DNA of 64,000 nt, taken from IMG/VR virus record IMGVR_UViG_3300032268_000973, positions 1-64,000 of that record; one strand, given 5' to 3'. This DNA is from a virus. Made by a program: the position numbers and the translations under genes. The notes under the pieces are model-generated. The model searched no databases and was not told the origin of the DNA. It saw nothing but the letters and a program-made list of their open reading frames with translations. Positions 22,505 through 26,767 of this stretch are shown here, in pieces (position 1 is the first letter of the stretch; each line of letters starts with the position of its first letter).

Positions 22505-23335
22505 ATGAGAAAAGAATTTACAGAAGGATTTAAGTCTGAAAATACACCAGATATGAAGTATTACGCGTTCGATTGGGACGATAATATTGTTCATATGCCC
22601 ACAAAAATTATAGTGATAGATAAAAACGGAGAAGAGTTTGGTATGTCAACTGACGATTTTGCAGAATATAGACATATGATTGGCAAAGAACCTTTTGAAT
22701 ACAAAGGTAACGAAATTGTAGGATATGCGGATAGTCCATTCAGAAATTTCAGATCAGGTGGAGACAAAAACTTTTTAGTTGATGCTATGAAAGCTAAGGT
22801 TGGTCCTGCATTCGATGATTTTAGAGAGGCGATAAATAACGGTTCAATTTTTGCAATTATCACGGCGAGAGGACACAACCCGAATACAATTAAAGAAGCT
22901 ATATACAACTATATTATATCAGGATTTAATGGTATAGATAAAGAACAACTAATAAAGAACCTCAAAAAATATCGAACCTTCGTAGATGAAGAGGATATGA
23001 GTGACGAAGAGTTAATAAGATCATACTTAGAACTCAACAAATATCACCCTGTATCGTTCGGAGATGAAGAAGGAGCTGTCAATCCTGAAGAGGCTAAGGT
23101 AGAAGCTATGGAAGAATTTGTTAGTTACATCAAGGCGATGGCGGCAGTACTAAATAAAAAAGTATTCTTAAAGAAAGGAGTAAGAAATAACTTTATTCCA
23201 AAAGAGCTTTCTATAGGTTTTAGTGACGATGATCCAAAAAATATAGAAGTAATGAAAAAACATTTTGAAAATAAACCAGATAATATAGTAAAAACGTATT
23301 CTACTGCTGGAGGCGTTAAGCGCGAAGTAAAGTAA
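22505..23335 (+). CDS. HAD-superfamily phosphatase
   Basis: 276 aa. HAD motif I is FDWDDNIV (nucleophile Asp and second Asp, residues 23-30), motif II is the Thr in AIITARGH (about 119-126), and motif IV is the acidic GFSDDDPKNIEVM near 239-251; a Lys for motif III is likely in the KKVFLKKG region. The helical insert between motifs II and IV is a cap that would set the substrate. T4 PseT has a HAD-type 3'-phosphatase domain, but no kinase domain is present here. Its place between sheath and tube genes is unusual. Substrate unknown. Confidence 0.8.
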   Translation: MRKEFTEGFKSENTPDMKYYAFDWDDNIVHMPTKIIVIDKNGEEFGMSTDDFAEYRHMIGKEPFEYKGNEIVGYADSPFRNFRSGGDKNFLVDAMKAKVGPAFDDFREAINNGSIFAIITARGHNPNTIKEAIYNYIISGFNGIDKEQLIKNLKKYRTFVDEEDMSDEELIRSYLELNKYHPVSFGDEEGAVNPEEAKVEAMEEFVSYIKAMAAVLNKKVFLKKGVRNNFIPKELSIGFSDDDPKNIEVMKKHFENKPDNIVKTYSTAGGVKREVK

Positions 23336-23428: not shown

Positions 23429-23917
23429 ATGGCTGATTTATTAATGAAAATGCCGATACCTTACGAACCAAAACGACAAAACCGTTTTATCTTAAGGTTT
23501 CCATCTAGTTTGGGAATAAATGAGTGGTTCGTAGAATCAACTGCAAGACCACAGATAACGATTGGTTCCACTGAGATTCAATTTTTAAATACCTCCACAT
23601 TTGTTGCTGGTCGATTTAACTGGAATCCAATAACAGTAACTTTTAGAGATCCAATTGGACCTTCAGCTGCTCAAGCTCTTATGGAGTGGGTTCGTCTACA
23701 CGCTGAATCTGTGACAGGTAGAATGGGTTATGCCGCGGGTTACAAAAAAGATGTCGACTTGGAAATGTTGGACCCAACGGGTGTTGTTGTAGAAAAGTGG
23801 ATATTATATGGAGTTTTCTTAACTGATGTCAACTTTAATCAGTTGTCTTATTCTCAAGATGGTTTAGCAACAATCACTTGTTCTATGAGACCTGACCGTT
23901 GTGTGTTAGTATATTAA
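23429..23917 (+). CDS. 19: Tail tube protein (gp19-like)
   Basis: 162 aa, the same size as T4 gp19 (163). KRQNRFILRFPSSLGINEWF, then the A-R-P-Q-I segment, F-N-W-N-P-I-T-V-T-F-R-D-P-I-G-P-S-A and a L-M-E-W-V-R-L-H helix are typical of T4-type tube proteins; the C-terminal D-V-N-F-N-Q-L-S-Y-S-Q-D-G-L closes the barrel. Forms stacked hexamers inside the sheath. TATTTATC lies at 23387-23394 and a hairpin terminator follows. Confidence 0.92.
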   Translation: MADLLMKMPIPYEPKRQNRFILRFPSSLGINEWFVESTARPQITIGSTEIQFLNTSTFVAGRFNWNPITVTFRDPIGPSAAQALMEWVRLHAESVTGRMGYAAGYKKDVDLEMLDPTGVVVEKWILYGVFLTDVNFNQLSYSQDGLATITCSMRPDRCVLVY

Positions 23918-23958: not shown

Positions 23959-23995
23959 TAACCGTAGGGAATAAAACTCTACGGTTATTATTTTT
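23959..23995 (+). terminator. Hairpin terminator between tube and chaperone genes
   Basis: TAACCGTAG (23959-23967) pairs perfectly with CTACGGTTA (23979-23987), 11-base loop, then TTATTTTT directly before the next ATG. Would let tube be made in excess over the chaperone. Confidence 0.75.
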
Positions 23996-24739
23996 ATGGA
24001 AAATCAATCAAAAGAATACGGACACTCAAATTTAAGTTTACCACACGATGTGGTTCCTTTACCCAGTCAAGGATTATTTTACAAAAACAAAAAGAAATCT
24101 ATAAAGGTTGGGTATCTTACTGCCTCAGATGAAAATATTTTGATGGCTTCTGATCCTAATATGACACAAAATCTATTGAGGGCAAAAATTTATGAACCAG
24201 ATCTCAAAGTAGACGAGTTGTTGGAGGGTGACATTGAAGCAGTTTTAATATTTTTGAGAAACACGGCATTTGGCCCTGAAATGGAATTGAGCCTTACCGA
24301 TCCTATCACAAAAAAATCTTTCAAAACTTCGGTGATGTTAGACCAATTGGATATTTTGAAAGGACAATCACCAACTGAGGATGGAACGTTCACAACAATA
24401 CTACCAAAATCACAAACAACGGTAAAACTAAAACCAATGAATTATGGTGAGATATTAGAAGTTCAGAGGTTGGGAGATAATTATCCTCAGGGTAGAGCCG
24501 TACCAAGAGTAACTTGGAGACTCAACAAACAACTTGTTGAAATCAATGGAACAACGGACAGAGGTGAAATTTCAAAATTCATTGAACAAATGCCAATAGC
24601 AGATTCCAAATATATTAGACAATTTATGGAAGATAATGAACCTCGATTAGATTTAAAAAGAACAATTATGACCCCATCAGGAGAAAAGCTAACAGTAAAT
24701 GTTGGTTTCGGGGTTGACTTTTTTCGTCCTTTCTTCTGA
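23996..24739 (+). CDS. gp26-type baseplate hub/tail assembly chaperone
   Basis: 247 aa. NLSLPHDVVPLPSQGLFYKN, then G-Y-L-T-A-S-D-E-N-I-L is the typical start of the T4 base plate protein family (PF12322-type, T4 gp26/gp51 relatives), with the later L-L-E-G-D-I-E-A-V-L-I-F-L-R. It lies between tube and tape measure, the usual slot of tail assembly chaperones. It ends in GVDFFRPFF, and the +1 frame stays open from here and codes a plausible second domain (next entry). Confidence 0.8.
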   Translation: MENQSKEYGHSNLSLPHDVVPLPSQGLFYKNKKKSIKVGYLTASDENILMASDPNMTQNLLRAKIYEPDLKVDELLEGDIEAVLIFLRNTAFGPEMELSLTDPITKKSFKTSVMLDQLDILKGQSPTEDGTFTTILPKSQTTVKLKPMNYGEILEVQRLGDNYPQGRAVPRVTWRLNKQLVEINGTTDRGEISKFIEQMPIADSKYIRQFMEDNEPRLDLKRTIMTPSGEKLTVNVGFGVDFFRPFF

Positions 24740-24878
24740 TTATAGGGTAGGTCAAATCAACGAATTTTATTATTTGACTAAATTATTAAATGTTAGTTAC
24801 AGTGATTTTTTGAAAATGCCTGTTTTTTTCAGAAAGTATTTATTAGATAAATGGGTAAAAGAAAATACAAAGGACTGA
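24699..24878 (+). CDS. +1-frame extension of the chaperone, probable programmed frameshift product
   Basis: The +1 frame relative to the gp26-type gene is open to a TGA at 24876. It reads SSDYRVGQINEFYYLTKLLN, then V-S-Y-S-D-F-L-K-M-P-V-F-F-R-K-Y-L-L-D-K-W, the L-x-M-P-x-x-x-R pattern of second domains of tail assembly chaperones. A likely shift site is T-TTT-TTC at 24719-24725: tRNA-Phe on TTT (24722-24724) can slip +1 to TTC, its best codon; a -2 slip is also possible. Alternatively it is a separate 59-aa gene from the ATG at 24699, with a weak AGGAG about 15 bases before. The shift model is favoured because the homologous part starts after the shift site. Confidence 0.7.
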   Translation: MLVSGLTFFVLSSDYRVGQINEFYYLTKLLNVSYSDFLKMPVFFRKYLLDKWVKENTKD

Positions 24879-24894
24879 TAAATCAGTCCTTTTT
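24869..24894 (+). terminator. Intrinsic terminator before tape measure
   Basis: Perfect 10-bp stem AAAGGACTGA (24869-24878) / TCAGTCCTTT (24883-24892), loop TAAA, T run to 24894. The 5' arm contains the stop codon of the +1-frame extension. Confidence 0.92.
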
Positions 24895-24922: not shown

Positions 24923-26767
24923 ATGCAAGATCCAAACGACAAATCATCGATTGACAAAATCTATCAAGATATTAAAGATCTATTCACGGTAAATTCTGAA
25001 ACCTTTGTTGCGGAGTTCGATAAGATTGCGGTGGCGGGTAACAAAATTCAAACCGTATTTACTCAAGGTAGACAACGAGTTGTAGAATTAAGAAATGCTA
25101 TAGCTGATGCAGCACCTGACGTAATAAGGTTGGGAGGTAATGTTGCGGACACTGGTCGAGTTATCGAAGATGTCGCAGAAGCATCTCGAAGAAATGTTGT
25201 TGCCACTTCAGAAGAAGTTGAAAAATTATTTGCGGCTGAAAAAGTTTTAGGTATAGGAGCTGAGCAATTGGCAAATTCTTTCTTGGATGTCGGTATTGGA
25301 ATTGAAAAGATAGGGGAAAGTTTGGATGAATCCGTAAACTACATCCGAAGTGTTGGAGGGAACGCTAGCCAAGTAATGAAAGATGTTCGACAGAACATGG
25401 AACAAATGAATCGTTACAATTTCGAGGGTGGAGTTGTCGGACTTACAAAGATGGCGGCTCAAGCTTCAATGTTGAGATTTGATATGAATCAGACTTTTCA
25501 ATTGGCTGACGACGTATTAAATCCTGAAAAGGCGGTAACAACTGCCGCGGCATTTCAACGGTTAGGAGTTGCTGTTGGAACTTTGGGTGACCCATTTGCA
25601 CTAATGAACGCTTCAATCAACGATCCTGGAGCGTTACAAGATAGTTTGGTTGATGTTGCAAAACAATTTACATACTTTGATGAAAAAACCAAAACTTTCA
25701 AAATTAACCCACAAGGTGTTTTAACTTTCAAAGAATTACAAAAAGAAACTGGTGTTAGTGCTACTGAAATGAGTAAGTTAGGGCTTGCAGCTGCCGAACT
25801 TGATCAAAGATTGACGGCAGTAAATTCCGCGGGATTAACAATTGTTAACGAAGAGGACAAACAATATTTAGCAAACATCGCTAAAATGGAAGAGGGAACT
25901 TACAAAGTTACCTTGGAAGACGGAACTAAAAAAGAACTTTCTGAATTAACTCAACCAGAATTTGATAAACTTATCAAAGAACAAAAAGAAGGTCCAAAGA
26001 CAGTAGAAGACATTGGTAGATCACAATTGAAGACAACTGATGTGATAATGAATGACTTGAAGGCTATCAAACAAAAAGTTGTTGGAGGTGTAGTTACGGC
26101 ACCACAAGCTACTCAATATACTGAAGGGGCTAGAAGAACGGTTTCAGCATTTACTGGTGCAGCGGCAGACTCTTTTGACACCAGTGATGTGAGAAGAGAA
26201 ACCCAAACGGCAATTGGAGACTTAGAAACTTTAGTTAAAGACTTAGGAAGTGGTAATAAAAATAGTGTAGACGCTATTGCGGATTATCTTGAAAGAGCGG
26301 GAACACAACTTACTAACTTGGATACTAAAGTAAAAAATAGTTTAGAAGAAACATCAAGGAAGGTTCAGGCAAACCTTGGAGACAAAACTGCGGTCGAAAG
26401 ATATACCAAAGACTTACTTGGAACTCTACAGGTGGAACTTGATAAAGGAACTGACGTAAAGAATCAACCAATTTCAAGTTTAGTTACAGGACAACAAACA
26501 CCGATAGGTAACCAAAATCTGTCGACATCAGTTTCTAATACTGCAACGGCCCAAAGTTCAAAAATGGATATTGGGGGGACATTAAATCACAATATAGTAA
26601 TAAAATTTGAAAACCCACCACCTAATATGACGCAAGCTCAATTAGATATGATTGCTCAATCTTTATCAAAGACGTTAAATAGTCCACAATACTTAGCATC
26701 GATGCAAAATAATAACAAACAGTTTAACCCTTTTGGTAATAATTCGCCAGCATATTATAATCCATAA
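24923..26767 (+). CDS. 29: Tape measure protein (gp29-like)
   Basis: 614 aa, near the T4 gp29 length (590). Largely alpha-helical with long heptad-like stretches (for example residues 60-200 and 430-540) and Ala/Asn/Thr-rich linkers, which is how tape measure proteins look. It lies directly after the chaperone with its frameshift signature, the fixed slot of tape measure genes in tailed phages. No catalytic domain or strong hydrophobic segment seen. Should set tail length and leave the tube on infection. The call rests on context, size and composition. Confidence 0.7.
   Translation: MQDPNDKSSIDKIYQDIKDLFTVNSETFVAEFDKIAVAGNKIQTVFTQGRQRVVELRNAIADAAPDVIRLGGNVADTGRVIEDVAEASRRNVVATSEEVEKLFAAEKVLGIGAEQLANSFLDVGIGIEKIGESLDESVNYIRSVGGNASQVMKDVRQNMEQMNRYNFEGGVVGLTKMAAQASMLRFDMNQTFQLADDVLNPEKAVTTAAAFQRLGVAVGTLGDPFALMNASINDPGALQDSLVDVAKQFTYFDEKTKTFKINPQGVLTFKELQKETGVSATEMSKLGLAAAELDQRLTAVNSAGLTIVNEEDKQYLANIAKMEEGTYKVTLEDGTKKELSELTQPEFDKLIKEQKEGPKTVEDIGRSQLKTTDVIMNDLKAIKQKVVGGVVTAPQATQYTEGARRTVSAFTGAAADSFDTSDVRRETQTAIGDLETLVKDLGSGNKNSVDAIADYLERAGTQLTNLDTKVKNSLEETSRKVQANLGDKTAVERYTKDLLGTLQVELDKGTDVKNQPISSLVTGQQTPIGNQNLSTSVSNTATAQSSKMDIGGTLNHNIVIKFENPPPNMTQAQLDMIAQSLSKTLNSPQYLASMQNNNKQFNPFGNNSPAYYNP

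Follow-up and report, generated by a model that had tools for sequence, protein, structure and literature searches.

A probable programmed +1 frameshift extends the tail assembly chaperone of an uncultured T4-like myovirus

Within the first 64,000 nucleotides of the viral record IMGVR_UViG_3300032268_000973 from IMG/VR (positions 1 to 64,000, hereafter the window, part of a 183-kb record), we examined a gp26-type gene and the reading frame that continues past its end. The locus very probably encodes the tail assembly chaperone (TAC) of a T4-like myovirus in two forms, a short product (TAC-N) and a product extended by a +1 ribosomal frameshift (TAC-NC). A sequence-only reading of this DNA had ended the gp26-type open reading frame (ORF) at 24739, followed the +1 frame to 24878 through the residues LKMPVFFRKY, and proposed a programmed +1 shift at a T run that extends a tail chaperone encoded before the tape measure, with the longer product's stop held in a terminator stem. 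The coordinates and residues proved right, the stem (24869-24892) does contain that stop (TGA, 24876-24878), and the shift is supported by the comparative tests described below. The elements of the locus are as follows.

23996-24739, + strand: TAC-N, the gp26-type gene, 247 amino acids, stop TGA at 24737-24739 (PF12322, PHROG 150)
24670-24715, + strand: predicted stem-loop, a putative +1 stimulator, with pairs 24670-75/24710-15 and 24686-94/24700-08 (predicted folding)
24699-24739, + strand: overlap zone in which the gp26 frame and the +1 frame are both open (reading frames)
24719-24728, + strand: putative slip site UUU_UUU_CGU_C, P-site UUU at 24722-24724 and A-site CGU at 24725-24727 (conservation, codon usage)
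24726-24878, + strand: TAC-C, the +1-frame C-terminal domain of TAC-NC, stop TGA at 24876-24878 (pN/pS, homology)

To the protein families, the short product matches PF12322 (T4_baseplate; E=2.5e-8, 34.3 bits against a cut-off of 24.5) and PHROG 150 (E=2.6e-12). In comparisons of family profiles, the alignment of the fused family to T4 gp26 stops at the slip point and so covers the short form alone (prob 96%), while that to T4 gp51 spans the full length, the C-terminal domain (C-domain) included (prob 95%, E 2.7e-8), with shuffled and reversed profile controls at no more than 0.5%. The C-domain alone also matches the C-terminus of T4 gp51 (prob 82%, E 1e-5; shuffled controls at most 0.4%); the gp51 match is weak with a single-sequence profile and becomes clear only with family profiles. 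We folded gp26 and the C-domain separately, leaving rows from annotated phage records out of the alignments, and obtained a three-helix AlphaFold model for the C-domain (predicted local distance difference test, pLDDT, 88) and a model for gp26 (pLDDT 86). Among solved structures the gp26 model comes closest to 2ob9, the tail assembly chaperone of HK97, with a Z of 5.3 compared with 3.0 for the next structure, over 93 residues at 4.7 Å, a match that is weak in absolute terms.

The second frame is conserved as protein-coding sequence. It is open in the window from 24699, following a TAA at 24696-24698, to the TGA at 24876-24878, and it is open in all of the close relatives that we collected from IMG/VR (80/80; 76-100% identical). 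Among 49 distinct sequences, the ratio of nonsynonymous to synonymous polymorphism (pN/pS) past the gp26 stop was 0.18 in the +1 frame, the two remaining frames giving 1.95 and 0.96, and the region therefore codes for protein in the +1 frame, under strong purifying selection; the body of gp26 itself gave 0.15. In a wider family of 188 loci, the homologous C-domain lies in the +1 frame at 179, counting as +1 two loci (L133 and L162) that have a longer open -1 frame as well, because their homologous domain is in +1. All counts of start codons and of re-pairing given below refer to 120 distinct +1 loci.

Constraint at the level of codons is concentrated at the end of the gp26 gene, where, among the last 20 codons, 19 are degenerate and encode an invariant residue and 10 of these occur in a single form, compared with 2 of 108 elsewhere. 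The string GAC TTT TTT CGY CCT TTC TTC is constant in the 49 unique sequences save for an alternation of CGT and CGC. Both the T run and the downstream frame, whose conservation the sequence-only reading had proposed to follow by alignment, are kept in this clade. Double coding past the slip point accounts for part of this codon freeze, but not for the fixed GAC and TTT that come before it. In the window the heptamer TTTTTTC occupies 24719-24725 and is split TTT TTT C in the gp26 frame; as mRNA (UUUUUUC) it permits re-pairing after either a +1 or a -2 movement, and after +1 the P-site UUU at 24722-24724 would re-pair on the UUC at 24723-24725. Judged by codon use, which like the start sites was computed from the genes of the 64-kb window, the codon that follows is scarce: CGT is used 2.8 times and CGC 0.21 times per 1000 codons, with AGA at 24, making CGC the rarest sense codon and CGT the ninth rarest. 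This rarity is in keeping with a slow A site that provokes a +1 shift, and a P-site UUU followed by CGN is present in both the window's clade and SagM-GXN1. No tRNA genes were found within the window. A prfB-like, stop-dependent +1 shift was considered and rejected, the stop being TGA or TAA and lying five codons past the UUU.

An alternative to frameshifting is that the C-domain is a separate small gene, translated as a 59-residue protein by re-initiation at the ATG at 24699 or from a coupled start. That ATG does open the +1 frame, with AGGAG upstream, fragments of the C-domain are annotated as separate hypothetical genes in some records, and in one lineage of two loci (L183 and L189) the homologous domain resembles an ORF of its own, with an ATG just past the gp26 stop. 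However, 33 of the 120 loci have no +1-frame ATG, GTG or TTG upstream of the slip codon, and in the group of L059 the only ATG runs straight into a stop (ATG-TAG), which on the sequence comparison refutes a separate conserved start in this clade; the window's ATG is a by-product of the Asn-Val codons AAT-GTN. Moreover, window genes make no use of Shine-Dalgarno sites (present at 1 of 37 gene starts, with 1.9 expected by chance), the constraint on the last gp26 codons begins around the slip site, and the lineage with the separate ORF is nested within the +1 clade. We thus rejected an internal start at 24699 as a general mechanism, no start being conserved among relatives, and regard a separate gene as very unlikely. 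Across the window, start codons lack Shine-Dalgarno sites and are preceded by A/T-rich leaders, a pattern that fits a Bacteroidota-like host.

If the ribosome does change frame here, it could in principle reach the second frame by moving back two bases. The tail chaperone of phage Mu uses a -2 shift, and the UUUUUU of the window lets the P-site tRNA re-pair two bases back, as it does in 105 of the 120 loci, alongside +1. What separates the two directions is the variation among relatives, since re-pairing after -2 is impossible in 14 of the 120 loci and re-pairing after +1 is possible in 119, favouring +1 over -2; UUU_C or UUU_U is all that distant relatives offer at the site. The same +1 change of frame occurs at the same place in Mel-JY01, LR756508, SP-15, immuto, RM378, SagM-GXN1 and LIS04, and only +1 re-pairing works in LR756508 (AAC UUU CUA), immuto (AGC UUU CUU), SagM-GXN1 (UUC UUU CGU) and a group with UUC UUU UGG. 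LIS04 (UUU UUU AGU) is the exception for a +1 move at the second UUU, and there a +1 slip at the first UUU would still re-pair. We accordingly hold a -2 shift to be highly improbable. The two directions would leave distinct products, with a junction peptide of VDFFVLSSDYR after +1 and VDFFFVLSSDYR after -2, and a tryptic junction peptide of LTVNVGFGVDFFVLSSDYR or LTVNVGFGVDFFFVLSSDYR, respectively.

The six consecutive T of the window could also invite slippage of the RNA polymerase, yielding a fraction of mRNAs already in the other frame. Yet the T run is only 3-4 long in 14 of the 120 loci, which keep their frame arrangement unchanged, and because of these short runs transcriptional slippage is ruled out as a general mechanism; we assign it only a slight residual chance. 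Finally, the frame change might be an artefact of sequencing or assembly, or mark a gene in decay, with the true ORF continuous. Nothing beyond the frame change itself favours this, and isolate genomes refute it: across numerous assemblies and isolates, 179 of 188 loci show the change at one and the same site. The probability of such an artefact or decay is practically negligible.

A +1 frameshift at the second UUU thus being the preferred reading, we infer its course as follows. Most ribosomes would stop at 24739 and release TAC-N (247 amino acids), and a minority, whose P site holds UUU while the rare codon CGU occupies the A site, would slip one base forward, the Phe tRNA moving from UUU to UUC, which it reads at least as well. 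Continuing in the +1 frame, these ribosomes would make TAC-NC (293 amino acids) with its extra helical domain. By analogy with the gpG and gpGT proteins of lambda, TAC-N would coat the tape measure and the extra domain would recruit tube subunits.

Slipping may be aided by RNA structure upstream. The predicted stem-loop at 24670-24715 ends 3 nucleotides before the T run and is the predicted fold of every one of the clade's 19 distinct pre-slip sequences; its mean z against synonymous random sequences is about -2.2 to -2.4, the lowest among the sampled stretches of gp26, the others ranging from -1.5 to +1.8. Standard pairs make up 91.3% of its pair cells, a value reached by none of 500 shuffles. 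Such a hairpin would probably refold behind the ribosome and favour a forward shift, and on the folding predictions we put its role as a stimulator of the +1 shift at even odds. Past the slip site we looked for a downstream RNA structure and found none (z about 0.2). An upstream GGGG acting as a Shine-Dalgarno-like stimulator is not favoured, window genes being without Shine-Dalgarno use; the invariant GGG pairs with CCCC inside the stem-loop.

Several observations weigh against this reading of the locus. The in-frame combination UUU_CGY is not rarer than codon use predicts (2 seen, 2.0 expected in 19,340 codons), and, as described above, the window itself has an ATG that opens the +1 frame, so that internal initiation may occur in this one genome, though no start is conserved. 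Covariation in the hairpin is thin, with few pairs varying in both strands of the stem, and no upstream structure of this kind is seen in Mel-type relatives (mean z -0.85). The Foldseek match of the gp26 model to the HK97 chaperone is weak (E 0.75, prob 0.57), and the Z of 5.3 may reflect only a common arrangement.

Beyond the +1 loci, the family includes other solutions at the same place. The C-domain lies in the -1 frame at 7 of the 188 loci (Atu_ph07, PA5oct, RAS14, LR756511 and three contigs, two of them near-identical); this arrangement is carried by huge or unclassified phages, with loci L089, L090, L092, L093, L195 and L197 among them, and at the same FF motif the sequence reads U_UUU_UUY in Atu_ph07, PA5oct and RAS14. 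At L183 and L189 (2/188) the C-domain looks like an ORF of its own, which begins with an ATG right past the gp26 stop, from about locus position 2212, and is lengthened at its N-terminus (MENIDNLLREIQ...). The arrangement that the sequence-only reading had named as refuting its proposal, in which the second part is a gene with a conserved start, is absent from the window's clade and does occur in this one distant sub-lineage. In the tree these two loci sit next to Flavobacterium phage immuto, nested within the +1 clade, and because of this nesting the split-off ORF looks like a derived loss of the shift. T4 carries 26 and 51 as two separate genes. The tree requires three changes of state, and its deep placements, on long branches, are unsure. 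Tentatively, and with somewhat less than even confidence, we suggest that the TAC family changed the direction of its frameshift at one and the same T run, with +1 in most lineages (UUU_CGY, UUU_UGG, UUU_C), -1 in huge phages (U_UUU_UUY), a split-off ORF in one sub-lineage and two genes in T4, and that in the window's clade the +1 shift is enforced by the rare Arg codon and the upstream stem-loop at a UUU_CGN site like that of influenza PA-X.

The surroundings of the locus are those of a tail gene cluster, with sheath and tube genes upstream of the TAC gene and a probable tape measure gene downstream.

23429-23917, + strand: tail tube protein (gp19-like), the upstream neighbour (PHROG 4542, E=1.7e-25)
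23959-23987, + strand: terminator-like stem upstream of the TAC gene (terminator scan)
24869-24892, + strand: intrinsic-terminator-like stem holding the extended product's stop (terminator scan)
24923-26767, + strand: probable tape measure protein, 614 amino acids (position; profile match)

The 614-residue protein resembles the corresponding downstream protein of the Mel-JY01 type (profile match, prob 92%) and had no significant match in Pfam or PHROG; a tape measure is annotated at the corresponding downstream position in immuto and SP-15. The stem at 24869-24892 has 10 pairs followed by a T-rich stretch, and the scan found 3 terminator-like sites where 0.6 were expected. Two such stems (23959-23987 and 24869-24892) bracket the chaperone gene, which suggests that it may have a short transcript of its own, apart from those of tube and tape measure. 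On the minus strand, antisense to the tail tube gene, positions 23832-23803 match the sigma-70 consensus at 12 of 12 positions (TTGACA-18-TATAAT), which may be chance in AT-rich DNA. Between the sheath and tube genes, a 276-residue ORF (22505-23335) that begins ...YAFDWDDNIV... looks HAD-phosphatase-like by eye; a PHROG search with it gave no significant match.

These results give a firm TAC assignment, in an uncultured T4-like group, to a gene labelled baseplate hub in databases, and they correct the annotation of immuto, SP-15 and Mel-JY01, where the C-domain was missed or called a separate hypothetical gene. They also provide a natural series for studying how a ribosome slips forward or back at the same U run, and how separate or duplicated genes replace a frameshift.

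Vladimirov, Gautam and Davidson (2022, Virology 566:9-15) reportedly worked out which genes of T4-like phages encode the TACs, finding a frameshift conserved in several groups and genes 26 and 51 in use in T4. A frameshifted TAC in a T4-like phage is thus an already known kind, and the earlier statement that such phages are not known to frameshift, which would make this lineage new, is outdated: in passages of two articles, Vladimirov et al. 2022 is cited for T4-like phages in which a short and a long gene replace the frameshift (PMC10274946) and for poly-T -1 signals in their TAC-N genes (PMC12846349). A 2016 review still gives T4 as the exception, and lists the haloarchaeal myovirus HSTV-2 as very likely +1 (PMC5009743). 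The UUU_CGY site, the hairpin, the occurrence of +1 and -1 in one family and the lineage with a split-off C-domain may be new; our text search of the literature for UUU_CGN together with bacteriophage found no paper.

Influenza PA-X is made at a UUU_CGU site, and UUU_CGN is a +1 motif of eukaryotic viruses (PMC3498833) with the same P-site UUU and A-site CGU; here the direction is deduced from relatives, and the motif stands in another gene and another domain of life, such that the likeness is one of analogy, not homology. With hairpins placed upstream of the site, as here, -1 shifting fell and, in yeast, +1 shifting rose (Cho et al. 2013, PMC3639245), effects shown in eukaryotic systems, whereas the present hairpin is predicted only. 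The gp26 and gp51 TACs of T4-like phages belong to the same protein family as the products described here, the short form corresponding to gp26 and the extended form to gp51 with its C-terminal domain; T4 differs in using two full genes where the window would use one gene and a +1 shift. Lambda gpG and gpGT (Xu et al. 2004; PMC5009743) likewise form a short and an extended chaperone from one gene directly before the tape measure, and differ in using a -1 shift where the window would shift +1 at UUU_C; the likeness to lambda is one of arrangement.
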